DNA of 33,544 bases from Oscillospiraceae bacterium (GTDB lineage: Bacteria; Bacillota; Clostridia; Oscillospirales; Oscillospiraceae): NCBI GenBank assembly GCA_017412585.1, contig JAFPXK010000069.1, positions 1 to 33,544 on the forward strand. The letters are read 5' to 3'. The notes beneath the pieces are model-generated. The model was given only the letters and a program-made list of their open reading frames with translations. It did no database searches and was not told the DNA's origin. The position numbers and the translations under genes were made by a program. Positions 18,341 to 33,544 of this stretch are shown here, one piece after another. Position 1 is the stretch's first letter. Each line of letters opens with the position of its first letter.

Positions 18341-18365
18341 GACAAATTCAGCATCTTGTGAAAAA

Positions 18366-18402
18366 TGTTCCATTTTGGAACACTACCTTGTAAGGGTTAC
18401 AA
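18366..18402. promoter_or_regulatory. Two palindromic operator candidates in the divergent region
   Basis: TGTTCC-N5-GGAACA (18366-18382) lies just upstream of the plus-strand -35, and TTGTAA-N3-TTACAA (18388-18402) includes the -35 itself. Both have the size and symmetry of sites for dimeric XRE-type repressors. The first sits where it could affect both promoters. No footprint is known; this rests on symmetry and position. Confidence 0.5.
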
Positions 18403-18416
18403 AAAAACGGTAAAAT
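18388..18416 (+). promoter_or_regulatory. Promoter of the giant surface-protein gene
   Basis: TTGTAA (18388-18393) and TAAAAT (18411-18416) are 17 bases apart. Transcription would begin near 18423 and leave a leader of about 60 bases. Confidence 0.7.
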
Positions 18417-18481
18417 ATGACAGAATATGTATACCTTGGGCGTATAGCGCAAAATCGTGTGAAAAGACAAGGAGAAGGGAC

Positions 18482-21400
18482 ATGAAAAAGAACGTACTGT
18501 CAAGAGTGCTGAGCCTGTTCCTGGCGCTGATTCTGGCGCTGGGCACGGTTCCGGTCACGGTGATCTCCGCCTATGCGGAGGGCGCGCCGGAGATGCTGGT
18601 GACGTCGCTGACCGAGCTTTACTCCGGCGACGAGACCCGGGCGCGGGAGGACCTGGAGGCCCTTTCTGCCGCCGGACTTCTGGGCGCCGACGGCAAGCTG
18701 ATCGACCTGGACATCCGCGAAAACGGCGAGAGCATAACGCTCTCGGCGCTGGCGGAGCGCATCGCCAAGGGCGAGACCGTGGGCACGATCACCGTCAACG
18801 GCAACGCCGCCACGGCGGAGCAGATCGTGCAGATCCAGTCGGTGCAGGCGGCTATCGAGATCGCCGAGCTCCTTGACGAGGAGATCGACGTGACGGACGA
18901 GCACGTGGAGAACCTGGAGGGCCTGCTCACCGGCATCCAGAACGGCAACGTCGATCTTGAGACCGCTCTCGAGAGCGGCACCCTGAGCCTAAAATCGGCG
19001 AACACCGGCACGCTGAGCCTGCAATCGGCGGACACCGCCACGCCGAAGGAGGAGACAAATGCGCTTGAAGGTTCATATAAAGGTTGGGACTTGTATAAGT
19101 TTGGGGCTCCAGATCTGGTTTATTCTGGTTATTATAAGGACAAATCTGTATATAAACTTCCGGCGGATGCGGTGGATGATAACCTGACTGGTTATTATGA
19201 TCAATATTTCAATGGCAGCGAATATGAAGAAAATCATTTTTTCCAGTTTCGCGATATGGCTCTGCATCAGAATCAGATGACGAGGCGATATTATTATATT
19301 GACAACCGGTACACAGGAGACGCATCCGGCACAATCGGCACTACTGGTAAGAACGAATTTATCGATTGGAATAATGTTAAGTGGGGCATAGACAGTAGTA
19401 AAGGAAAAGGGGCGACGGTGACGATCTTATTGCCGCTCAAATCCGATGAATCTCTTCAGGATCAGATTAAACAGTGGATTACTAATGAGAGCGCAAGCTG
19501 CCAGACAAGTGGCAGCGGCATTGCAATGAGTTTGCCGGAACCGTATGGCGCAACTACCATAAACTTTTATATGACCAGCATGTATTTTGGTACTAAGGAT
19601 TATACATACTGGGATACAATAATTCCCGGTAAGAAATATCCGGTATATGTTGTGACGTCCTCCGGTGAGCAGCCGGTGGCCCTGGTGGCTCGTTATTCTC
19701 CGGTAACAAACAACGAAGCTTATCTTCGCAAAGAAACGGTCAATCTGTATATGAAATCTGCAATAGAGGCAACTGCCGGTTTCAATTGGGAAAACGCGCC
19801 GACTGATCCTTTGGGGTATCATTATTACGCTGGAACATCATGGAACAAAGTAAGCGGCACCAGTTATTCGTACTATGTTGGAACCCTTGCCAAGATTAAC
19901 CTTGATCAGTATGTAAGCAGAACGCAACAATATGTAAATCTCAATAATGGTTTCATCAAATTGACGGACGACAATACCGAGTTTCCCTATGTTTATCTTA
20001 AGGATGAAAGTCATCCGGAACTACAGTGCGATTTAGAGATTCGCGTCACGGAGGATATGTATAATATCCTCTCTAAAGACCCAAAAGTTCTTTATATGGG
20101 AGAAGATCAAGACCTCAGATTGACGTATCAAATAAGTGATCGCATAGATTTCGACTGCGTAACGCCTAAAGAAGATATTCGTTATAAGATTTTAATTAGG
20201 GATAGCGGCGGTGGTTATATGGTCGGAGGTGGCGACGTACTTGAATCAAGTGATGACGGAAGAGTGTATACTCTGAATCCGACTAAGCCCGGCGAAGCAT
20301 CACATCTGTATCTTGTGGCGCTGAACGGCTCTTCCGACGATACCGCTAACACTTGCACACGCCATGATATTGAACTCGCCGTCAAAGAGGGGTCGGCGCC
20401 ATATATGATGATCCCTCGTTCTTCCCGCACGCGCGAGACTATGTCGGGGGTCAGTACGGACATCTTTTTCTCATCCAATGCCGCGCAGTCCAACAATCGC
20501 AATACAGACATCACGCTGAAGCTCTACAGCTTTGACGGGGGCGACATTGACAGCTTTACTCCCAGCGGAACCCCATATTATACGACAAAAGGAACCAGCA
20601 CGGTAGCAAATCCGCTGACGCACATCACCATCCCCGGTGAAAAGCTGACGGCGGGGAATTACGCGGTGGTGTTGAGTACCAGCATTGGAGGCACAACGAT
20701 GACCGCCAAGGCGCTGCTTAAGGTGAAGCAGAGCCCGGCGAAGGTCACGCTGGATAAGCTCGACAGCTACTATGTGGAAAAAAGCGATCTGCCCAATATT
20801 TCATACACGCTGACCTCGGCGGCGGAGGGCGCTGAGGTGAAATACACCATTCAGCAGTCCGGCGGAGAAGTCAGTGCGATGCAGGATGCCTCCGACGGTA
20901 CGATTCCGTTCACTGCGGACACCGTGGGCACCTTTGAGGGCTTGAAAAAAGCCTATACCATCACAGTCTACGCCCGCAACAAAGACGAAGATCCGTGGAG
21001 CGTGGATTCCATGCTGCTGACGGTGTATAACACCAACCCGCTGAAGCTGATCCTGAAGGACGTTCCCTTCGGCGAGGTGGGCGGCACCACCGGCGGCAAG
21101 GCGGGAGACGGCAGCAGCGAAGCCGGAACGAGCCTCGTTTTGGACAACAGCGACGACATCCAGACCCTGCTGAAAAAGCTGAGTTCGGATGCAAACTACA
21201 GTTTTGACGACCTGCGCTCCGACGTCAACCTGCAAAAGCTCATCTCCGCCAACTACGGCAGCGGCGCCTGGGGCATCATCTCGGACAAAATGCAGTGGTC
21301 CGCCACGGAAGGCACCGGAGACAACAAGACAGCCAGCGATAGAGTCACGCTGAACTATGAGGAGCGCGGCAATTACGCCGATCTCCGCAGCTACAGCTAT

Positions 21401-24400
21401 ACCTCTTTCATCCCCACCTCGGATTTTCTGATTGTGGCGACCGATGATGTAAGCGGGGAAGCGCCGGTCACCATCACCGCGAAACATGTCAGCACCGGCA
21501 TGACAAAGGATGTAACGGTCAGCGTCAACACTCTGAAAAACAAGCTTTACCTGTTCCGCTTCAACCCGAAAGCGCAGACTACGGTGACCTATTACACCAC
21601 CGACAATCAGCCGCATACGGTGACAACCAACAGTAATGGCGAGCTTGCCATCTATGAGGCCGGCGGGATCACCGGTGACATTGTGGCGATGTCAAAGGTT
21701 GGGGACGAAACCTATATCGGCACCTATAATAGTAAGGATTTTGTTAGCGGCGAGCAGAACATTGTCAAACTCGAGCTCTATCCCTGCAACAACCTGACGC
21801 TGAAGCCCATTTCCAGCACAACGCTGACATTCCTCCAACCGAATGGTCAGCCCTACACCGGCGAGGTGATCCTCCGCGGCGGCGTTTATGTGAATGGAGA
21901 TTACTGCTCTGAGGCAGATCTTCGTAACACCAATTCAACCGATGCTGAACGGTATCTCCGCAAGGACATGACGGTCAACATCGGCGCAGACGGCAAGACC
22001 ACCGTATGGCTTGACCCAACGCAGTTTATTCCCACGAGCGGCGGGATACGGAGATTGCAGTATGTCTTTGAATATCGCTTTGAGAGCGGTTACCAGCCAG
22101 GCTACGTTATCATCGACGTCGCCTCTAATAACCATACTAACTCCATCGTGAATCTCCAGACCCTCCGCGGCAGCGGCAATGTGCCAACGATCGTACGGCA
22201 GGAGTATCAGCAGTATTACTGGGATGCAAATGCGAAACAGTACAGAGCGACTGACTATACGCGCAACGTAATCGATTATACGGATAACATCGGTATTTCC
22301 CCGGACTTCAGCAAGGCTGAGCTGTATACCGACGCTGTAATGTTGGGCGAGAGTGTCGGCACAGACGAAAACGGCTTTTCGACCTATTCGGGTGAGAATG
22401 CTGCCAGCTTCGCCCTCTACACTGCCGGTGGGACGCTGCTCACCGGTCAGAACAAGTTGTCAGAGGCAAAGACAATAACGAAATTGGACGAGCTGGATAA
22501 TGCAACCTACTTCGTGTTCCCGTTCTCCACCGTCCCGATGCTTCGCAGCACCTATACGATGACGAACACGGATATGACGGCGGACGGCATCGGCGGCGAT
22601 ACCCCCACCGCTCGAATCAAGGCGGTCTTTAAAAAGAGCGATGTAACGGTCAGAACCATCACCATGCCCTTTGGTGTCACCAACGTTTCCCAAAAGACAA
22701 GCCTGAAGGATGGAACCACCGGCGCGCTTGCGATCGGCAAAGAGGTGCGCAGTGAGCTGAATAGTAAAACCGACATTGGCTCGATCTTCCGGAGCATCAA
22801 TGTCAACGACATGATCAAAAAGGGCTTCGTCTTCCTCGGCAATCTTGCCGGAGCGGGCGGCTACAACCCGATCAATATGATGATCCTGCCCACGGCGGAC
22901 CCGTCAACCTTCCGCATCATTGCCTTTGTCGGCTCCAATGCCCGGAAGGAGAGCGACGCCTCTGAGGGCGGCGTTTCCGTCAACTTCAACACCGACGACC
23001 TCGCCGAGGATATGAGCAAGTACATGAAGGAGATGGAGGACGACGGCGACGACAGCGACTCCAACGGCGAAGGCTCCATGGAGTTCAACTTCTACGGCAC
23101 GATCATCCTCGAAGCGCGTGTCGGCAACGGCAATTGGAACATCGAGTTCCGCGGCGGCAACGTGGGCACCAACGTAAAGGGCAAGTACGAGTGGGGCCAG
23201 ACCTTCATGTGTGGCCCGTATCCCGCGTATATCTCCTTCGAGGTGGGCTTCAACGCCGACCTGGAGGTGGCCTTCGGCAACAAGGACTCTGCCCGCGCCA
23301 TGCTGCTTGACGCAGCCCTGGGCGTGTCCATCGAGGCGTTTGCGGGCCTCGGCTTCGACCTGTCCCTGGTGGCGTTGCAGCTGGGCATTTACGGCCGGAT
23401 CGGCGCGGATGTGAACTTCCTGCTCCTGACCCCCAGCGATGAAAGCGCCAAGACCGGCACGAAGCTCACCATCGCCGGTGAGATCGGCATCAAGCTGAAG
23501 GTCAAGCTGCTGTTTATCTCTTACACCAAGAAATTTGCCTCCACCGGCTTCGACTGGACGAAGAAGTGGAACAATTACGACAAGATCAAGGACTACTGGA
23601 ACGACCAGGGCTTCGCCCAGCTCTTCGGCACCACACGCAGCGGCAGAGCGTACACCATGTACCTCTATGCCGACGGCAGCACTATCGTGGAGATCGACGG
23701 CGGCGCCGAACTGGAAAGCCGCGACTATCTGGAGCTGTCCGAGAGAGCCTGGACGAGCGGCGTCAGCCTCATGCGGGCCGCCGGCCCCATGACCGGCGCG
23801 TTCAACAACGTGCAGACCAATGCCTATCCCTATTCTCACCCGGCGTTTACCGACGACGGCGAGCTGTTCCTGTACGTCTCTGATAACGACAACGCCAGCG
23901 AGGTGGAAAGCGTCGTGAGCTACGCCGTGAAGAACGGAAACGGCTATGACAATGCGGGCCGCGTGGACACCTCCGAGGATAACGTTCTCGCTGACCTGGA
24001 TATCGTCGCCAGCGGCACCAGGGACAGCGCCTTTGCCGCCTGGGTCAAGCAGATCGAAACGCCTCAGGCCGAGCAGCATGAGAACGTCTCCAACGATGAG
24101 CTCACCATGATGTTCAACGCCACCGAGGTCTACGCCGCTTCCTATAATGGAACGGCGTGGACGACCACACGCCTGACAGACAACTCCGTGGCGGATATGG
24201 CGCCCACCGTGGCAAGCTACGGCGACAAGGCCATCGTGGCCTGGCGCAGCCTGAACACGACCTCCCTGTCTGTGAATGGGATGGACGATCTCACCGCGGC
24301 GTTCAACGTGGAAAACAATATCAACTACCGTATCTATAACGGCACAGAGTGGATGACCGCCCAGGTGGCCTATAACGGAAACGCCGGCACGGTGAACGCC

Positions 24401-27400
24401 ATCGACTCCGCCATGCTGGCTGACGGCACGGCGATCCTGGTCTACACCGTCCGCACCGGCGAGGACGTGACTACCACCGAGACCTTCTACACCGTGATCA
24501 ATGCAAACGGCGAAACGGTCACCACCGGACGCCTGACCAACGACAGCTACACCGATACCAACGTGCAGGTGACGGCGGTCAATGAAAACGGCGGCTACTT
24601 CGTCCTGGGCTGGTATTCTGAGCACGACGCAGGCCAGGGCACCACCGCAGCTGAATATGACGCGGAAGGGAATGTCACCGCAACGAAGGCTGTTGTGGCC
24701 CACGACATCCGCCTGGCACGCATCAACGCCAACGGCAGCTATGACATCAGCTTCCCGGAGAGTGTCGGCGGCACCGGAGAGACGGGCATCACCGCTGATT
24801 TCCACTTCTCCGCGCCTGTCAATAATGGGAATCTGGAAAACGTCTCCGTCGTCTGGTCCCAGCGCAAGAACAGTGACACGGCGGAGGACGCGGGCAAGTA
24901 TGAGCTGAACGCGATTCGCTTCTACAAGGCGGACGGCGTGACCGGTATGACCGCGCCCACGGATATTGCGGAGACGGATAAGAACTACACCATCGACCGG
25001 TTTGATGCCTATACCGACAGCGCCGGCGCGATCCATGCCATCATCCTCGGCACGGATTACAACACCATTGAGGGAATCGATACATATGACTCGATCGACC
25101 TCGATGCAGCGGCAGGTAACACCGTTGACAGCAACTCCGCCGAGCCGAACAATCTGGATATTCTCGACGGCGAGGCCATCTCCTCGCTGAAGCTGGCCAC
25201 CGGAACCTTCCCGGAGACGGCGGCAAACGTGACCGCGGATATCAATATCTCCGAGGTGATGCCCGGCTTCACCACGCCGGTGCAGTTCACCGTGACCAAC
25301 ACGGGCACCGACAAACTTACCTCCGTTACGGCGAAGGTCGGCAGCCAGAGCAAGGATTTCACCGATCTGAACCTGCTCCCGAACCAGTCCACCACGCTGC
25401 TGATGAGCTACAGCGTCCCCGAGGGCGCGGTGGCTGACGCGACGTACAGCGTAGCCGCCAACAGCCAGGCTCTTGCCACAGGCACACTGGCCCTGAACCG
25501 CCCGGATGTGGGCATCTCCGGCATCAAGCTCCTGCAGGAGTACGACGGCAAGCGGGATATCCAGATCACGCTGAGCAACAGCTCCGAGATTCCGCTCTCC
25601 GGCAGCGGCAAGACCGTCAAACTGGCCTTCTATAAGGATCCCTTCCACGAGAGGATGATCGGCAGCGAGGTCTCCATCACCGGCACCGCTCTTGCGGATA
25701 TTGATGCGGGCACCTACACCACCGTCCAGACGCTCAACGTCACCGATGTTGTTAGGCTCAATGATGACGGAGAGATCCCCGAAGACGGAGCTACGGTGTA
25801 TGTCCGCGCCTGGGTGGATGGTGTTGAGGAGCCGAATACCTATAACAACGACAACTTCATTTCCCTCACAGGCCTGCTGGCCAGGAACAACGGTGAGAAG
25901 CTGACCATAGACACCTCGGTTGAAGCGAATACCAATGAGCAGAGCGAGGTCACAGGTTATACCGTCTATGCGGACATCCGCAACAACTCCATGCATGCGC
26001 CGGGCGATATGATTCCCGTTGCGGTGCTTCTGGATAGCACTGGCAGAGAAATCGCCAGAAAGGATATGTTGACGGAAGCCAATCCCCTGCAGCTGGGCGC
26101 GGAGGGCAGAAACAGCGATCTGCACGTTGTCATCCCTGTGGAAGAGGTGAATAACGGTGAGCCTGCCACCCCGGCGCAGGCGGTTATCCGCTTCCGCTAC
26201 AAGGTGTCGTTTGACACGACCACAAACGGCGGCAGCGGCGACATCAGCGCGGTATATACTGACATGGAGGGGAAGATAGCGCTTCCGGAAGGTAAACCTA
26301 CCCCGCCGGAAGGGAAGGGCAACGTCTTCACCGGCTGGTACACGGCGGCGGAAAACGGCACCAAGATTACTGCGAATACGGTGTTCACGGAGAGCACAAC
26401 GGCCTATGCAAAGTACGTCACCCATTTCCACGAATTCAGTTACAGGGTAGATGCACAAGACAGCAGTAAAATCATCGCGACCTGTGCAGACAGTGACCAC
26501 TATTGTTATCTTGAAGACTTAACGGCAACGATGCAGATCACGGCTCCGACCCTGACCGTCTACGGCGGCACGGGAAGCGTCGCGGCAACTGTGAGCAACG
26601 GCCTTGACGGCGTCGATACCCCGACCGTCGTGTATAAGAAGGGTGAGACGGAGCTGACTGCCGCTCCCACCGGCGCCGGCACTTACACCGCCAGCATCAC
26701 GGTCGGTACCGGCGATAACGCGGCCACCGCCAGCGTGGAGTACACGATTGGGTGTGCCACGATGACCGACGTCAGCGTGGCGCAGAAAGGCACGCTGACC
26801 TATACCGGCAGCGCCCAGACCCCGCAGGTTACCACTGCCGCCACGACGGTGAATAACCAGAAAGTGACCTTCACCTACAGCAAGACGGAGAATGGCCCGT
26901 TTGGTGCTATGCCCACCTTCACCAACGTTGCTGACGCCGGAACGGTCTATTACAAGGCCAGTGCGCCGAACCACGAACCGGTAACCGGCAGCTTCACGGT
27001 CACGATGAACAAGGCCAATCAGACGGCACCTGCCGCGCCCGCGCTGGCTGCCCACACCGCGAAAACGATCACGCTTACAGAGGTGGAGGGCTGCGAGTAC
27101 AGCAAGGACGGCACCACCTGGCAGGAGAGCGCCACCTTTACCGATCTGGCGAAGGGAAAGGAGTACACCTTCTATCAGCGCCTCAAGGAGACTGCGAACT
27201 GCAACGCCTCTCCCTCCAGCGCCGCCGCGACCATCTCCACCTCAGACCACGATCACCAGTGGGGCTTCACCGCCGACGGCGCCACCATCACCGCGACCTG
27301 CCTGAATGAAGATGAAGGCCATTCCGGTGAGCTGAGCGCCACCATTACCATTACGCGTCCTGCCCTGACGGTCTACGGCGGCACAGGAAGCGCGGCGGCG

Positions 27401-29803
27401 ACAGTGACCAACGGCGTTGACGGCGTGGACACCCCGATTGTGGTGTATAAGCAGGGCGAGAAAGTGCTGACTGCCACGCCTACCGACGCCGGCACCTACA
27501 CCGCCAGCATCACCGTTGGCACCGGCGACAACGCAGCCACCGCCAGCGTGACCTACACCATCGAAAAGAAGTCTGTCACCCTCACCGCCGATAACAAGAC
27601 CATGACTTACGGCGATGCCGAGCCCACGCTGACGGCTACCAATACCGACCTGGTGGGCAATGACACGCTGAACTACACGCTGTCGAGAGTCGAGGGCAAT
27701 AACGTCGGCGAATACGTCATCACCGTTACCCTGGGCGACAACCCCAACTACGATGTAACCGCCATCAACGCCAAGCTGACCATCAATAAGAAGGCCGCCA
27801 GCATTACCGCCGATAACAAGTCCAAGACCTACGGCGACGCCGATCCCGCGCTGACGGCTACCGCCACCGACCTGGTGGGCAGCGACACGTTGAACTACAC
27901 CCTGTCGAGAGCTGAGGGCGAGAACGTGGGTGAGTACGCCATTTCCATCACCCTGGGCAATAACCCCAACTACGACGTGAGCGTGACGGGCGCCAAGCTG
28001 ACCATCGACAAGAAGGATGCCAGCGTCACCGCCGATGCCAAGTCCAAGACCTACGGCGATGCCGATCCCACGCTGACCGCTGCGGTGGAAGGCACTGTGG
28101 GTGATTACGCGCTCAACTACACGCTGACGAGAGCTGAGGGCGAAAACGTGGGCGATTACACCATCACCGTTACCCTGGGCGAGAACCCCAACTACAATGT
28201 GAGCGCCGCAGGCGGCAGCTTCACCATCACGAAGAAGCCTGTCACCCTCACTGCCGTGGACGTGGGCAAGATCTTCAGCGAAAGCGATCCCGCGCTGACA
28301 GCTACCAACACGGACCTGGTGGGCGAAGACACGCTGAATTACACGCTGTCGAGAGCCGAGGGCGAGAACGCCGGCGAGTACGTCATCACCGTTACCCCGG
28401 GCGAGAACCCCAACTACGACGTGACCGCTGTAAACGGCGTATTCACGATCGGGAAGAAGCCCGCCACCATCACGGTTACCAACCTGAGCAAGGTCTACGG
28501 CGAGGATGACCCCGCGCTGGAGGCCACCGTGGAGGGCACCGTGGGCGATGACACGCTGGAATACACGCTGTCGAGAGCCGAGGGCAAGAACGCCGGCGAG
28601 TACGTCATTACGGCCACCCCGGGTGAGAACCCCAACTATGACGTGACTGTTTTGAACGGCCTGTTCACCATCCTGAAGAAATCCGCTGGCGTGGTGGTTA
28701 CCGTCCACAACGCGGGCAAGGTCTACGGCGAGGGCGATCCTCGGCTGACCGCCACTGTTTCCGGCCTGGAGGGCGATGATACGCTGGACTACACGCTGTC
28801 GAGAGCCGGCGGCGAGGATGTCGGTACGTACACCATCAGCGTCAGACTGGGCGGCAACGCCAACTACGAGGCGGCTACATTGAACGGCCTGTTCACCATC
28901 AGCCAAAAGCCTGCCACCATTATCGCCAACAATGTGAGCAAGGTCTACGGCGAGGACGATCCTGCGCTGACGGCCACCACGGCCAACGTGGAGAGCGGCG
29001 ACACCCTCAACTACACGCTGTCGAGAGCCGAAGGCGAGAACGTGGGCGAGTATCGGATCACGGTGCGTTTGGGCGATAACCCCAACTACGACGTGTCCAC
29101 CGTGGGCGGCAAACTGACGATCACCAAGGCGGATCCCGCTCCGGCCACCTTTACCGAGGAGAAGATCGTTTACAACGGAACGAAGCAGGCGCTTATGGCG
29201 GTTGCCGGTACGGTGAAGGGCGGCAGAGTGATGTACGCTCTCTCCACCAGCGCTTTGGCCGCTCCCGAGGAGGGCTGGAGCACGGAGATCCCCACCGAGA
29301 CCAACGCGGGCACCTACTACGTATGGTACAAGGTGGTGGGCGACGAGAACCACAACGACACGGAACCGGCTTGCGTGGAGGTGGCCATTGCTCCCGACTA
29401 CGGCGTGGCGTCCATGTCCGGCCTTTCCGGCGCCAACGAGGACCAGTGGACCAAGAGCAGCGACAACGGCCTGGCCATCACCATGAAGCCCTCCGGTGAA
29501 GAGGACAGCTTGGCCCACTTTGTGGGCGTCAGACTGGATGGCGAGGACCTTGTCAGAGACGTGGACTACACCATCGGGGAAGACGGCGCCACCGTGACGC
29601 TGAATCCGGAAACCCTGGAGGCGCTCGCTCCTGGCAAGCATACCGTCACCGTTGTCTACGACAACGGCGAGGCCGACACCACCTTCACCGTTTCGGCGGC
29701 GGACAGCCATGTGGGCCTTTGGATTGCTGTGGCTGCCGTGTCTGTGGCTGCCATGGTTGTCATCCTTCTGTTTGTCAGAAAGAAAAAAGCGAAAAAGCAA
29801 TAA
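18482..29803 (+). CDS. Giant multidomain surface protein with CARDB-like, InlB-like and MBG repeats
   Basis: A 3773-residue exported protein, probably an adhesin or scaffold on the cell surface. The start ATG 18482 has AAGGAG at 18469-18474 and begins a clear signal peptide (about residues 1-34); the frame is open 39 codons further up but without start signals. In order: a helical segment (35-160), two 10-residue repeats (166-185), an AT-rich-coded segment (about 192-680), Ig-like parts, an acidic linker DDGDDSDSNGEG (about 1519), a beta-rich domain (about 1545-1720), a propeller-like region (about 1780-2200), CARDB-like domains (about 2250-2565), an InlB/Listeria-type repeat (about 2573-2646), two His/Cys modules flanking Ig-like repeats (2648-3027), seven MBG repeats (3029-3548), a last Ig-like region, a membrane segment (3744-3765) and the tail RKKKAKKQ. 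No LPXTG precedes the membrane segment. Ligand and function are unknown. Confidence 0.9.
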   Translation: MKKNVLSRVLSLFLALILALGTVPVTVISAYAEGAPEMLVTSLTELYSGDETRAREDLEALSAAGLLGADGKLIDLDIRENGESITLSALAERIAKGETVGTITVNGNAATAEQIVQIQSVQAAIEIAELLDEEIDVTDEHVENLEGLLTGIQNGNVDLETALESGTLSLKSANTGTLSLQSADTATPKEETNALEGSYKGWDLYKFGAPDLVYSGYYKDKSVYKLPADAVDDNLTGYYDQYFNGSEYEENHFFQFRDMALHQNQMTRRYYYIDNRYTGDASGTIGTTGKNEFIDWNNVKWGIDSSKGKGATVTILLPLKSDESLQDQIKQWITNESASCQTSGSGIAMSLPEPYGATTINFYMTSMYFGTKDYTYWDTIIPGKKYPVYVVTSSGEQPVALVARYSPVTNNEAYLRKETVNLYMKSAIEATAGFNWENAPTDPLGYHYYAGTSWNKVSGTSYSYYVGTLAKINLDQYVSRTQQYVNLNNGFIKLTDDNTEFPYVYLKDESHPELQCDLEIRVTEDMYNILSKDPKVLYMGEDQDLRLTYQISDRIDFDCVTPKEDIRYKILIRDSGGGYMVGGGDVLESSDDGRVYTLNPTKPGEASHLYLVALNGSSDDTANTCTRHDIELAVKEGSAPYMMIPRSSRTRETMSGVSTDIFFSSNAAQSNNRNTDITLKLYSFDGGDIDSFTPSGTPYYTTKGTSTVANPLTHITIPGEKLTAGNYAVVLSTSIGGTTMTAKALLKVKQSPAKVTLDKLDSYYVEKSDLPNISYTLTSAAEGAEVKYTIQQSGGEVSAMQDASDGTIPFTADTVGTFEGLKKAYTITVYARNKDEDPWSVDSMLLTVYNTNPLKLILKDVPFGEVGGTTGGKAGDGSSEAGTSLVLDNSDDIQTLLKKLSSDANYSFDDLRSDVNLQKLISANYGSGAWGIISDKMQWSATEGTGDNKTASDRVTLNYEERGNYADLRSYSYTSFIPTSDFLIVATDDVSGEAPVTITAKHVSTGMTKDVTVSVNTLKNKLYLFRFNPKAQTTVTYYTTDNQPHTVTTNSNGELAIYEAGGITGDIVAMSKVGDETYIGTYNSKDFVSGEQNIVKLELYPCNNLTLKPISSTTLTFLQPNGQPYTGEVILRGGVYVNGDYCSEADLRNTNSTDAERYLRKDMTVNIGADGKTTVWLDPTQFIPTSGGIRRLQYVFEYRFESGYQPGYVIIDVASNNHTNSIVNLQTLRGSGNVPTIVRQEYQQYYWDANAKQYRATDYTRNVIDYTDNIGISPDFSKAELYTDAVMLGESVGTDENGFSTYSGENAASFALYTAGGTLLTGQNKLSEAKTITKLDELDNATYFVFPFSTVPMLRSTYTMTNTDMTADGIGGDTPTARIKAVFKKSDVTVRTITMPFGVTNVSQKTSLKDGTTGALAIGKEVRSELNSKTDIGSIFRSINVNDMIKKGFVFLGNLAGAGGYNPINMMILPTADPSTFRIIAFVGSNARKESDASEGGVSVNFNTDDLAEDMSKYMKEMEDDGDDSDSNGEGSMEFNFYGTIILEARVGNGNWNIEFRGGNVGTNVKGKYEWGQTFMCGPYPAYISFEVGFNADLEVAFGNKDSARAMLLDAALGVSIEAFAGLGFDLSLVALQLGIYGRIGADVNFLLLTPSDESAKTGTKLTIAGEIGIKLKVKLLFISYTKKFASTGFDWTKKWNNYDKIKDYWNDQGFAQLFGTTRSGRAYTMYLYADGSTIVEIDGGAELESRDYLELSERAWTSGVSLMRAAGPMTGAFNNVQTNAYPYSHPAFTDDGELFLYVSDNDNASEVESVVSYAVKNGNGYDNAGRVDTSEDNVLADLDIVASGTRDSAFAAWVKQIETPQAEQHENVSNDELTMMFNATEVYAASYNGTAWTTTRLTDNSVADMAPTVASYGDKAIVAWRSLNTTSLSVNGMDDLTAAFNVENNINYRIYNGTEWMTAQVAYNGNAGTVNAIDSAMLADGTAILVYTVRTGEDVTTTETFYTVINANGETVTTGRLTNDSYTDTNVQVTAVNENGGYFVLGWYSEHDAGQGTTAAEYDAEGNVTATKAVVAHDIRLARINANGSYDISFPESVGGTGETGITADFHFSAPVNNGNLENVSVVWSQRKNSDTAEDAGKYELNAIRFYKADGVTGMTAPTDIAETDKNYTIDRFDAYTDSAGAIHAIILGTDYNTIEGIDTYDSIDLDAAAGNTVDSNSAEPNNLDILDGEAISSLKLATGTFPETAANVTADINISEVMPGFTTPVQFTVTNTGTDKLTSVTAKVGSQSKDFTDLNLLPNQSTTLLMSYSVPEGAVADATYSVAANSQALATGTLALNRPDVGISGIKLLQEYDGKRDIQITLSNSSEIPLSGSGKTVKLAFYKDPFHERMIGSEVSITGTALADIDAGTYTTVQTLNVTDVVRLNDDGEIPEDGATVYVRAWVDGVEEPNTYNNDNFISLTGLLARNNGEKLTIDTSVEANTNEQSEVTGYTVYADIRNNSMHAPGDMIPVAVLLDSTGREIARKDMLTEANPLQLGAEGRNSDLHVVIPVEEVNNGEPATPAQAVIRFRYKVSFDTTTNGGSGDISAVYTDMEGKIALPEGKPTPPEGKGNVFTGWYTAAENGTKITANTVFTESTTAYAKYVTHFHEFSYRVDAQDSSKIIATCADSDHYCYLEDLTATMQITAPTLTVYGGTGSVAATVSNGLDGVDTPTVVYKKGETELTAAPTGAGTYTASITVGTGDNAATASVEYTIGCATMTDVSVAQKGTLTYTGSAQTPQVTTAATTVNNQKVTFTYSKTENGPFGAMPTFTNVADAGTVYYKASAPNHEPVTGSFTVTMNKANQTAPAAPALAAHTAKTITLTEVEGCEYSKDGTTWQESATFTDLAKGKEYTFYQRLKETANCNASPSSAAATISTSDHDHQWGFTADGATITATCLNEDEGHSGELSATITITRPALTVYGGTGSAAATVTNGVDGVDTPIVVYKQGEKVLTATPTDAGTYTASITVGTGDNAATASVTYTIEKKSVTLTADNKTMTYGDAEPTLTATNTDLVGNDTLNYTLSRVEGNNVGEYVITVTLGDNPNYDVTAINAKLTINKKAASITADNKSKTYGDADPALTATATDLVGSDTLNYTLSRAEGENVGEYAISITLGNNPNYDVSVTGAKLTIDKKDASVTADAKSKTYGDADPTLTAAVEGTVGDYALNYTLTRAEGENVGDYTITVTLGENPNYNVSAAGGSFTITKKPVTLTAVDVGKIFSESDPALTATNTDLVGEDTLNYTLSRAEGENAGEYVITVTPGENPNYDVTAVNGVFTIGKKPATITVTNLSKVYGEDDPALEATVEGTVGDDTLEYTLSRAEGKNAGEYVITATPGENPNYDVTVLNGLFTILKKSAGVVVTVHNAGKVYGEGDPRLTATVSGLEGDDTLDYTLSRAGGEDVGTYTISVRLGGNANYEAATLNGLFTISQKPATIIANNVSKVYGEDDPALTATTANVESGDTLNYTLSRAEGENVGEYRITVRLGDNPNYDVSTVGGKLTITKADPAPATFTEEKIVYNGTKQALMAVAGTVKGGRVMYALSTSALAAPEEGWSTEIPTETNAGTYYVWYKVVGDENHNDTEPACVEVAIAPDYGVASMSGLSGANEDQWTKSSDNGLAITMKPSGEEDSLAHFVGVRLDGEDLVRDVDYTIGEDGATVTLNPETLEALAPGKHTVTVVYDNGEADTTFTVSAADSHVGLWIAVAAVSVAAMVVILLFVRKKKAKKQ
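18977..19036 (+). repeat. Two 30-bp in-frame repeats (GTLSLxSAxT) in the surface protein
   Basis: Codons 166-175 and 176-185 encode GTLSLKSANT and GTLSLQSADT. They lie at the end of the GC-rich N-terminal part, about 20 bases before the AT-rich segment begins, and may form a linker. Confidence 0.75.
19056..20530 (+). other. AT-rich segment within the giant gene
   Basis: From about 19056 codons such as AAT, TAT, GAT, ATA and TTA become frequent, while on either side GC-ending codons dominate. The change is sharp at the 5' side and gradual near 20500. The frame stays open. No known domain is recognised in the encoded aromatic-rich stretch (many Tyr and Trp). It looks like a segment brought in by recombination, judged by eye. 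Confidence 0.6.
26552..27562 (+). repeat. Duplicated 66-residue module (two copies, with His/Cys headers)
   Basis: Residues 2691-2756 (26552-26749) and 2962-3027 (27365-27562) share the backbone LTVYGGTGS, AATV, DGVDTP and GTYTASITVGTGDNAATASV with no length change. Each is preceded by a similar header with two histidines and an ATC cysteine: H2648/H2650/C2668 and H2923/H2925/C2940. Between the copies are Ig-like repeats of another type. The duplication therefore covers a unit of about 100 residues. Confidence 0.75.
27566..29125 (+). repeat. Seven tandem MBG-type repeats (222 bp each)
   Basis: Seven units of 74 codons (the sixth has 76) encode the pattern KKxxxxTAxxxxKxYGDxDP, then LTA, DTLNYTLSRAEG, NVGEY, LGxNPNYDV and a final beta-strand. 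This is the MBG domain of mucus-binding-like surface proteins. Repeat 4 has FSESDP in place of the YGD/E-DP motif. The Leu-Ser-Arg in the middle is encoded as ctgtcgaga in six of seven copies (ctgacgaga in the third), so the copies are alike at DNA level as well as in protein. Confidence 0.88.
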
Positions 29804-30376: not shown

Positions 30377-31430
30377 TTACCTGGGCTTGACCACGATCAG
30401 CCTGACCTCCAGCATGTCCAGCATGGCGTCCAGCCGCATCACGCCGTCCTCGGCGGCCACCGTATATTTGTTGACGGCGGGGACGGACCGGGCGGCCAGG
30501 GTGTCCAGCTCCGGGCCGCTGCTCAGCGCCATGGCGCCCATGGCGAGCCATTGGTCAAAGGCGCTGCCGGAGGCGCGGTTGATCACCGTTTCGGTGACGA
30601 TATAGTCCCCCGGCTTTGCGTCGCTTATGTGGAGGTGTACGTCCAGCAGCTGCTCCGGGGAGAAGGGCGTATAGCGCTCGGTGAAGGTCATGTCGAAGCG
30701 CTCCCCCTGGGCGTAGAGGTGGGAGAAGTGGCGGTAGTGATACAGCATGATCCGGTAGCTGTCGCCCTGGCGGGTCGCAAACCAGCCCTCACCCCGGCCC
30801 AGCAGGGTGTCGCCCAGCTGCCGCAGCAGGGTGAAGGCGTAATAGCCGGCCTTGGGAATGCCGTTTGCGGTGAACAGGCCCAGCCCGCCAAAGAACATCT
30901 CCTCCGGCTGCGCGGCCTCGCCCATCCAGTCGGTCAGCGACCAGTAGGAAAAGCTCTCCAGCCGGTCGTAGTTTTCCAGAATGTTTTTGACGATGTAGCA
31001 GGACTTGAAGCAGGTGTCGTTCAGGAGATCCTGCTGGCTGGGGGTGTTGTTCCACTCGGTGAGGAACAGGGGCATGGCGTCTGCGCCCAGCTGATGGCGC
31101 TCGCTGCGCACCTGGGTGACAAAGCCGCTGAGGCCGTCGGTGCTCTCCCGCAGCGCCATGGACGCGGTGAAGCCAAAGGCCTCCTGCCCGCCCTCGCTCT
31201 CGTTGAATACCAGGTCATAGTAGCAAAAGTTGAGGAAATCCGGGGTGCAGTCCTGCTCCCGGCACCATTGCAGGAAGGGGATATACCAGTTCCGGTAGCC
31301 CGGCTGCATCAGATAGTAGGTGGACGGCGCGCCGAAGAACAGCCCCCGGTCGCAATCCTTCACCGCCCGGAACGTGGCGCGGTAGAATTGGTAGAAGGCC
31401 TCGTCGCAGGAAAAGCCGTACATACTGTCC
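30377..31430 (-). pseudogene. GH39 glycosidase (beta-xylosidase-like), N-terminus missing
   Basis: About 350 C-terminal codons of a GH39-type retaining glycosidase. Recognisable parts are FYQFYRATFRAVKDCD (after the lost acid/base region), FFGAPSTYYL, the nucleophile region PLFLTEWNNT (Glu codon at 31055-31057), ENYDRLESFSYWSLTDWMGE, and the C-terminal beta-sandwich ending at the TAA (30377-30379). The frame stays open to 31477, but upstream of about 31430 it is only the reverse of the neighbouring GH78-like fragment. The first part of the barrel, including the acid/base motif, is gone, so the product should be inactive. No promoter or ribosome binding site is seen at the broken end. Confidence 0.8.
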
Positions 31431-32006
31431 GACGTGCTGGGCTGGTGCTTCCTGGACTGGAACCTGGCCCTCAACAAGCAGGCCGGGGCCCAGGGCGTGT
31501 ATCTCTACGCCCTGAAAGCCGCCGGCAAGATCGCCGCCATTTTGCAGGACGATGAAAAGGCGGCGTGGATCGCAGCGGACTATGAGACGAAAAAACAGGC
31601 GGCCATCGACGGCCTGTACGATGGGTCGCTGGGCCTGTTTGTCAGCGGGAAAGAGCGGCAACTCTCCTGGGCCAGCCAGATCTGGATGGTGCTGGGGGGC
31701 GCGGCGGACGCCGCTGTGCTCCGCCGCATCGCGGCGCGGCCCGACGCTGTGGGCATGGTCACGCCCTATCTCTACCACCACTACGTCCAGGCCCTGCTGG
31801 ACGTGGGGGAGAAGGACAAGGCCCTGCAGGTGCTCACCGATTATTGGGGCGGCATGATAAAAGAAGGGGCGGACACCTTCTGGGAGCTCTACGACCCCGC
31901 CGACCCCAACGCCTCCCCCTACGGCGGCACCATCGTCAACAGCTACTGCCACGCCTGGAGCTGCGCCCCGGCGTACTTCCTGCGGGAATACTTCCCGCCC
32001 CGCTGA
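31428..32006 (+). pseudogene. C-terminal fragment of a GH78-like alpha-L-rhamnosidase
   Basis: About 190 codons matching the end of the (alpha/alpha)6 barrel of GH78-type enzymes: LGWCFLDWN, YLYALKAAGKIAAIL, GLFVSGKERQLSWASQIWMV, YLYHHYVQALLDVGEKDKAL, TFWELYDP, NSYCHAWSCAPAYFLREYF. The acidic catalytic motif lies in the missing N-terminal part. The only in-frame start near the break is a GTG at 31434 without a ribosome binding site. It begins exactly where the head-to-head GH39 fragment ends. It is a different protein from the complete GH78 at 2785. Confidence 0.75.
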
Positions 32007-32077
32007 TGGCTCCCTCGGCCGGTCGCGCCGCAAACCCAAGGCGGCGCAGCGCCGCTTCGCCCCCCAAAATAAGCTCC

Positions 32078-32104
32078 AAGACCTCCGGCACGGCCGGAGG
32101 TCTT
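32078..32104. other. 12-bp hairpin sharing its core with 9889-9921
   Basis: The arms AAGACCTCCGGC (32078-32089) and its complement (32093-32104) enclose ACG. The inner 10 bp are the same as in the hairpin at 9889-9921. No proper T-run follows. It sits 71 bases after the GH78 fragment. Confidence 0.6.
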
Positions 32105-32162
32105 GCCTTAGCTGGACGGAATAATGTGGCAATGCAAATCGCTGAAAGAATACTGGAAAAAC

Positions 32163-32191
32163 TTGACAAACCCCTCCGGCGGGTCTATACT
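32163..32191 (+). promoter_or_regulatory. Promoter of glmS
   Basis: A perfect TTGACA (32163-32168) and TATACT (32186-32191) with a 17-base spacer. Transcription should start near 32198, a few bases before the leader hairpin. Confidence 0.85.
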
Positions 32192-32197
32192 CACCAG

Positions 32198-32262
32198 TGT
32201 TCTGAGACAACGGCGTCTCAGAGGGCTCCGTGTCCCCTGCGCGCCGTTGTCTCCTTTTTTTG
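32198..32262 (+). promoter_or_regulatory. Attenuator-like leader upstream of glmS
   Basis: Two exclusive folds are visible. An early hairpin pairs CTGAGAC (32202-32208) with GTCTCAG (32215-32221), one more U-A pair being possible. A terminator pairs GAGACAACGGCG (32204-32215) with CGCCGTTGTCTC (32242-32253), with an inner GGG/CCC helix, followed by seven Ts (32255-32261). The whole 5' arm of the terminator lies inside the first hairpin. The structure starts right after the predicted transcription start and ends 27 bases before the glmS ATG. No glmS ribozyme core, T-box or known riboswitch motif is recognised. It could also be the end of a small RNA of about 60 nt. Confidence 0.6.
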
Positions 32263-32288
32263 TTTTCAAATTGCGAAGGAGGGATACT

Positions 32289-33544
32289 ATGTGTGGAATC
32301 GTTGGATTTACCGGAGCGCGGGATGCCGCGCCGGTGCTGCTGCAGGGGCTGGAGCGGCTGGAATACCGGGGCTATGACTCCGCCGGCATCGCCGTGTTCC
32401 ATGACGGCGCGATACAGGTGGAGAAGGTCAGCGGCCGCATCGCCGGACTCCGCGAAAAAACGGACAACGGGGCGGGCGCTCCCGGTGCCGCCGGCATAGG
32501 CCACACCCGCTGGGCCACTCACGGCGCACCCACGGATCAGAACGCCCATCCCCATCTTTCCAATGACGGTCGCTTCGCCGTGGTACACAACGGCATTATT
32601 GAAAACTACCTGGCCCTTCGCCAGGAGCTGATGGACTATGGCTATGTCTTTCATTCTGAGACGGACACGGAGACCATCGTCCACCTGCTGGAGCACTACT
32701 ACGACGGCGATTTGAAGGCTGCCGTCATGAAGACTGCGGCCCGTCTGGAGGGCTCCTACGCCCTGGGTATTCTCTGCACCGAAACGCCGGGCGTCCTCTA
32801 CGCGGTGCGGGAGGCAAGCCCTCTGATCCTGGGCGTCGGGGTGGGGGAGAACTACTTCGCCTCGGACGTGACGGCGCTGGTGGCTCACACGAAAAACGTG
32901 ATTTATCTGGACGACGGCGAGCTGGCCAGGCTGACGCCGGACAGCATCACCGTATATGACTGTGCCGGCCGAGAGACGCAAAAGCCCGTCAGCCGCGTGA
33001 CCTGGAGCGTGGAGGCGGCGGAGAAAGGCGGATATGCCCACTTCATGCTCAAGGAGATCATGGAGCAGCCCGCCGCCGTCAAAGCTGCCCTGGCCCCCCG
33101 TATCCGGGGGGGACGCGTGGAGATGGACGGCTTCGACCTGGACGCAGGTGAGCTCCGGGACGTGCGTAAGATCGTGATCACTGCCTGCGGCTCGGCCTAT
33201 TACGCGGGCTGCTCCGCCCGCTATGCCGTCGAGAAGCTCTGCCGCATCCCCGTCCAGGTGGAGCTGGCCAGCGAGCTGCGATACTGCGACCCCATGGTGG
33301 ACGAACACACGCTGGTGCTGGTGGTTTCCCAGTCCGGCGAGACGGCGGACACCATTGCCGCGCTGAAGGAGTGCAAAAGCCGGGGGGCGAAGGTGATCGG
33401 CATCGTCAACGTGGTGGGCAGCACCATTGCCAAGCTGTCCGACCATGTGCTGTACACCTTCGCCGGGCCGGAGATCGCCGTGGCCACCACCAAGGGCTAC
33501 ACCACCCAGCTGGCGGTGCTGTATCTCTTCGCCCTCTACGCCGC
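32289..33544 (+). CDS. glmS: Glutamine-fructose-6-phosphate aminotransferase (3' end outside window)
   Basis: The first 418 of roughly 610 residues of GlmS, which makes glucosamine 6-phosphate from fructose 6-phosphate and glutamine, the first step to UDP-GlcNAc for the cell wall. The N-terminal glutaminase domain starts with MCGIVGF, Cys2 being the nucleophile after Met removal, and shows RLEYRGYDSAGIA, GHTRWATHG and HNGIIENY. After a linker the first sugar-isomerase (SIS) domain shows TACGSAYYAG and SQSGETADT. The ATG has AAGGAGGG 5 bases upstream. The gene has its own promoter and an attenuator-like leader. The sequence runs off the window in the second half of the isomerase part. Confidence 0.96.
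   Translation, partial: MCGIVGFTGARDAAPVLLQGLERLEYRGYDSAGIAVFHDGAIQVEKVSGRIAGLREKTDNGAGAPGAAGIGHTRWATHGAPTDQNAHPHLSNDGRFAVVHNGIIENYLALRQELMDYGYVFHSETDTETIVHLLEHYYDGDLKAAVMKTAARLEGSYALGILCTETPGVLYAVREASPLILGVGVGENYFASDVTALVAHTKNVIYLDDGELARLTPDSITVYDCAGRETQKPVSRVTWSVEAAEKGGYAHFMLKEIMEQPAAVKAALAPRIRGGRVEMDGFDLDAGELRDVRKIVITACGSAYYAGCSARYAVEKLCRIPVQVELASELRYCDPMVDEHTLVLVVSQSGETADTIAALKECKSRGAKVIGIVNVVGSTIAKLSDHVLYTFAGPEIAVATTKGYTTQLAVLYLFALYA

Follow-up and report, generated by a model that had tools for sequence, protein, structure and literature searches.

The locus analysed here raises the question of what controls glmS in a member of the Oscillospiraceae that carries a near-consensus promoter and two overlapping helices immediately before this gene, the place that a glmS ribozyme (RF00234) occupies in most members of its genus. 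In the window, by which we mean the whole 33,544-nt stretch of DNA, this leader is very probably an attenuator of the ANTAR type, in which a protein governs transcription and would switch glmS together with a glutamine regulon. Its parts are the following.

32163-32168, + strand: -35 box TTGACA (direct reading of the letters and promoter scan)
32186-32191, + strand: -10 box TATACT, 17 nt from the -35 box (letters and promoter scan)
About 32198, + strand: predicted transcription start, placed from the position of the -10 box
32202-32221, + strand: putative antiterminator hairpin of the ANTAR type with a single hexaloop, CUGAGAC[AACGGC]GUCUCAG (folding; kept and covarying in 73 distinct relatives)
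32202-32208 and 32215-32221, + strand: the two arms of this hairpin (stem CUGAGAC/GUCUCAG)
32209-32214, + strand: hexaloop AACGGC with A1 and G4 and a closing C-G pair (letters; A1/G4 enrichment in the scan)
32204-32215, + strand: 5' arm of the terminator, shared with the 5' arm and loop of the hairpin (letters, folding)
32242-32253, + strand: 3' arm of the terminator, giving a 12-bp stem (letters, folding)
32255-32261, + strand: run of seven Ts (letters)
About 32276-32283, + strand: ribosome binding site AAGGAGGG (letters)
32289-33544, + strand: glmS with its ATG at 32289, cut by the contig end to residues 1-418 of about 607
32127-33544, + strand: promoter, leader and glmS as one unit, which recurs uninterrupted in another genome, RUG674 (L110), with 82% identity up to 33538 (blastn)

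On re-reading, every coordinate that an earlier note had assigned to the consensus promoter, the hairpin, the long terminator with its seven Ts and the ribosome binding site of glmS holds. The promoter has 11 of the 12 consensus letters, and the promoter scan detected two promoter-like sites in the 2.5 kb scanned against 0.3 expected. The full leader (32198-32262) folds with -33.8 kcal/mol (z = -6.9; 0 of 200 shuffles as good). When its 5' part is folded alone, the first hairpin is formed (-9.4 kcal/mol for 32202-32221), followed by a small second hairpin (GGGCUCCGUGUCC) whose loop, UCCGU, has neither A1 nor G4. Because both use positions 32204-32215, the first hairpin and the terminator are mutually exclusive. 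The Rfam search of the window, at the gathering threshold and at a permissive E-value, returned no relevant family and no glmS ribozyme, and the RF00234 covariance model had no match before the window glmS, which bears out the previous statement that the ribozyme is missing from this position. Just upstream, at 32077-32105, there is a 13-pair inverted repeat that is terminator-like on the - strand and has a T-rich tail.

A single relative of the glmS leader was found in the same genome, on contig C72, with 86-89% identity (89% over 75 bases). It is located directly before glnN, which encodes a type III glutamine synthetase of 697 residues (PF12437, 260 bits), and the contig additionally carries the GS-I gene, pyrG and the only ANTAR gene of the genome. 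The pyrG gene has a leader of its own, in which the promoter TTGACA-17-TATCCT is followed by the hairpin GAAC[AATGAC]GTTC that overlaps a terminator. The hairpins of the glmS, glnN and pyrG leaders all have loops of six bases, the first of which is A and the fourth G, and such an A1/G4 hexaloop is the recognition signature of ANTAR antiterminators (PMC3369931, PMC8934654).

The same architecture proved to be widespread. The genus regions and 80 clostridial loci that had been found with an ANTAR alignment were scanned with fixed script thresholds for leaders consisting of a promoter, an A1/G4 hexaloop hairpin and an overlapping terminator. This yielded 119 A1/G4 leaders across Clostridia, compared with 1-26 for each of the 15 other letter pairs, and at least one leader was present at 61 of the 80 clostridial ANTAR loci. 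The stem sequence varies; fixed are A1 and G4 of the loop and the C-G pair that closes it (118/119 leaders). The largest group of targets is glnN, and the others are a gltB-like gene (a class II glutamine amidotransferase, PF00310), pyrG, GS-I, gdhA, purA, guaA, asnB and glmS; most of them serve the synthesis of glutamine or glutamate or the use of glutamine. As a guard against circularity, 162 upstream regions were picked by gene, with neither a terminator nor a promoter filter, and 113 of them contained a hairpin with an A1/G4 hexaloop and five or more stem pairs, versus 22 in simple shuffles. Two overlap geometries were distinguished: in the glmS leader and some glnN leaders the terminator takes in the 5' arm and loop of the hairpin, and in those of pyrG and further glnN genes it takes in the loop and 3' arm. 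Some glnN genes are preceded by a tandem pair of single-hexaloop units (G017, L167, L177; L058 at about 1349-1450).

Within the genus, an ANTAR gene was found in 14 of 32 genomes, 13 of which have a leader-type glnN (70-99% identical; 79% in one partial gene), and in 11 of these 13 both genes are on the same contig. The other type of glnN (about 57-59% identical) showed no such leader in the copies that were inspected. The fourteenth genome, G006, is without a leader-type glnN, and its ANTAR protein is of another kind, in which a regular receiver (D present) is combined with two ANTAR domains (L088, L091; G006:C22:14740-15039).

In EutV of Enterococcus faecalis, which acts on the eut RNAs, two hexaloops are needed in vivo (PMC3369931, PMC8934654). 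It could be argued that the glmS leader is a canonical dual-hexaloop target, with the second hairpin serving as P2 or with a P1 missed upstream, and the small hairpin that follows the first one in the 5' fold would suit such an arrangement. We regard this as improbable, since the loop of that hairpin lacks A1 and G4 and is not conserved. Moreover, 105 of the 110 strong-promoter leaders have the first base of the hairpin 3-13 nt downstream of the -10 box, which places it at about +1 to +9 from the predicted transcription start. None of these 105 has a hexaloop upstream of the hairpin, where 0-9 transcribed nucleotides leave no room for P1, and a second A1/G4 hexaloop downstream occurs in 10 of them against 5.5 in shuffles, which is near chance. 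The leaders thus share with dual-hexaloop ANTAR targets the A1/G4 hexaloop, a short stem with conserved pairing and closing pair, the overlap with an intrinsic terminator and an ANTAR protein encoded in the genome, but not the P1 and P2 pair of hairpins. Because it lacks the pair of hexaloops, the family is best described as a single-hexaloop variant that would work like an ANTAR attenuator. Like the EutV system, it combines a mutually exclusive intrinsic terminator with an ANTAR-domain protein encoded nearby and nitrogen-linked genes. It differs from that system in its lone hexaloop, whose hairpin sits right at the 5' end of the RNA, in the pseudo-receiver of its protein, whereas the receiver of EutV is phosphorylated, and in its glutamine regulon. 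A EutV dimer touches the hexaloops singly, and the work on the EutV-RNA structure of 2022 did not settle why two are obligatory and raised the question of how far targets with a single hexaloop function (PMC8934654). More than 100 natural lone hexaloops that overlap terminators make the single-hexaloop question directly testable. In the literature searched, we found no description of single-hexaloop clostridial glutamine leaders.

A still less probable explanation is that the terminator is a plain one, which would yield a short RNA constitutively or keep glmS at a fixed low level, with the first hairpin being incidental. The terminator is indeed strong (-33 kcal/mol) and would be dominant at equilibrium. 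However, throughout Clostridia the hairpin, its loop letters and the way it overlaps the terminator have been kept, with compensatory changes, whereas the terminator sequences differ among leaders and come in the two overlap geometries. The earlier note had named conservation and covariation of the first helix among relatives as the check on its proposal, and this was performed on 73 distinct hairpins that were chosen by loop, closing C-G pair and promoter, the rest of the stem being unfiltered. Paired stem cells amounted to 90.6% versus 71.4% in shuffles, both sides had changed in 104 cells versus 39, and the covariation score was 0.641 versus 0.285; when the partner column was slid by 1-3, pairing dropped to 34-48%. 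As pairing and double changes exceed those in the shuffles and the slid columns, the first helix is a conserved RNA structure with extensive covariation. Because both states are conserved, a constitutive short RNA is unlikely.

A metabolite riboswitch, in which the first hairpin would sense GlcN6P, UDP-GlcNAc or glutamine, appears hardly credible. The control of glmS by a ribozyme in most of the genus and the presence of two exclusive folds would be in line with it, but a hairpin of 20 nt whose stem varies in sequence has no conserved core the size of a pocket, glnN, pyrG, gdhA and purA are preceded by this hairpin too, Rfam gave no match, and an ANTAR gene is linked to the hairpin. The earlier proposal had left the effector as an unknown ligand or protein; the protein, likely an ANTAR protein, is the part that survives, while the small-molecule ligand does not, and the regulon points to glutamine and nitrogen rather than to an amino-sugar response.

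The single ANTAR gene of the genome (PF03861, 53 bits) lies beside the glnN and pyrG leaders, and PF03861 is the only domain match in its product of 194 residues. The protein matches Rv1626 (1s8n), EutV (6wsh) and AmiR (1qo0), and judged by its sequence the ANTAR assignment is clear. The phospho-accepting Asp is missing from its receiver domain, and at this position all 58 relatives scored have N, H, Q, R or S, which makes a partner protein a likelier input than a kinase. AmiR is likewise a pseudo-receiver protein, with AmiC as its partner. NasS-NasT is a further partner-controlled ANTAR system (PMC3795266). In contrast to both systems, where the ANTAR protein is known to be governed by a partner, here there is a candidate: because 48 of the 63 loci that could be tested have GS-I upstream of the ANTAR gene, it is reasonable to hypothesise that GS-I is the partner that reports glutamine. 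EutV residues K143 and K147 (in our own numbering) align with invariant Arg in the ANTAR relatives, and the K143 and K147 double mutant of EutV has been studied for RNA binding (PMC8934654). The leaders would give an orphan pseudo-receiver ANTAR protein a concrete regulon.

According to the attenuator reading, RNA from the 32163-32191 promoter would begin with the one-hexaloop hairpin. Left unbound, this hairpin would give up its 5' arm and its loop to pairing with 32242-32253, and transcription would terminate before glmS. The orphan ANTAR protein, whose gene is beside GS-I, glnN and pyrG, would bind the hexaloop, stabilise the hairpin and block the terminator. In this way glmS would be switched on with the glutamine regulon, i.e., glnN-glmS-guaA-asnB and pyrG, and in relatives also the gltB-like gene, gdhA, GS-I and purA. 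The on/off direction and the signal are assumed by analogy with known ANTAR systems. The signal is probably not phosphorylation; rather, a partner, plausibly the neighbouring GS-I, may report low glutamine or ammonium. The target genes, together with the mention of NitR, a glutamine synthetase antiterminator of Clostridium acetobutylicum (PMC4676874), suggest that the system is turned ON when glutamine or ammonium is low. To the extent that it is described there, NitR resembles the present system as an ANTAR-type antiterminator tied to a glutamine synthetase gene. In the literature searched, glmS was not reported as a NitR target, and no paper was found that ties ANTAR to glmS.

The window glmS (TIGR01135, 545.7 bits against a cut-off of 418) differs in its setting from that of most genus members, in which RF00234 stands directly before glmS and whose glmS are 55-59% identical. 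Members of the window's clade (G022, G028 and most of the rumen MAGs L106-L113) have glmS behind a leader and glnN, and the operon often continues as glnN-glmS-guaA-asnB. In the window, the start of glmS is joined straight to a promoter, a leader and a 5' UTR such as glnN has. This junction is rare: among 394 genomes sampled in the order with one tightly defined pattern it was found in the own genome only, to which RUG674 is added. The other matches to the pattern were due to chance, except for two asnB leaders. In RUG674 the same junction is in the original locus, with glnN missing. As each glmS is closer to its own lineage (the window gene is 94% identical to that of G022 versus 82% to that of L110), the junctions may have arisen independently of each other.

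The own genome has two glmS 5' ends, one in the window and one after glnN on C72, and two distinct 3' ends, on C8 (followed by guaA) and on C88 (followed by a transporter operon), each of which overlaps the end of the window by exactly 141 bases. By elimination among these ends, the window glmS continues into C88. The same glmS-transporter order as on C88 occurs in G015 (96% over 6.1 kb), whose glmS is 99% identical to the window protein. As a second glmS, the copy in the window has a leader of its own. That the junction is an assembly chimera is just as hard to credit as a riboswitch: the contig belongs to a MAG and ends inside glmS, and two truncated glycosidase genes that stand head to head at about 31420-31434 suggest a join there, but 32127-33538 is contiguous and collinear in RUG674, the genome has two 5' ends and two distinct 3' ends of glmS, the latter overlapping the window end exactly, and the glnN-glmS operon form exists separately.

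The idea that attenuation takes the place of the ribozyme holds as far as the window leader lacks RF00234 and most glmS of the genus have it; the wording that it replaces the ribozyme needs care, since relatives still have the ribozyme, before glmM-nagB or nagB. The ribozyme precedes glmM, with nagB downstream, in G015, G022 and G028 (loci L042:3983-4188, L043 and L044). It stands directly before nagB in six rumen MAGs (L186-L191, about 1501-1650 of each locus). The ribozyme-glmM region of the relatives was not found in the own genome, probably owing to an assembly gap, and neither was nagB by PF01182 in this fragmented assembly, perhaps for the same reason. The assemblies of all genomes close to that of the window are fragmented, and the lack of the ribozyme refers to the window leader and not to the whole genome. 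The glmS ribozyme, which has the same place before glmS in the genus, acts by self-cleavage, whereas the window leader would act by protein-controlled attenuation. The nagB and glmM-nagB targets of the ribozyme are unusual and would suggest that NagB works in the synthetic direction.

More broadly, we tentatively propose, as a reading with somewhat less than an even chance, that widespread clostridial attenuators with a single 5' hexaloop suffice for ANTAR control and coordinate the synthesis and use of glutamine, and that in the rumen-associated clade GlmS has passed from GlcN6P feedback to nitrogen control. If so, the ribozyme that moved to nagB or glmM-nagB would perhaps exert feedback control over ammonia-dependent GlcN6P synthesis by NagB, and GlmS would serve under nitrogen scarcity. 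Amino-sugar synthesis would then follow nitrogen status, where the textbook arrangement has the glmS ribozyme.

Elsewhere in the window, a truncated GH39-like gene (30377-31420, - strand) meets a C-terminal rhamnosidase-like fragment (31434-32006, + strand), and their junction at 31420-31434 is either an inversion breakpoint or a misassembly. Finally, a single open frame at 18365-29803 encodes 3812 residues; its product, which has long repeated domains and ends in a membrane anchor at the C-terminus, is probably a large surface protein.
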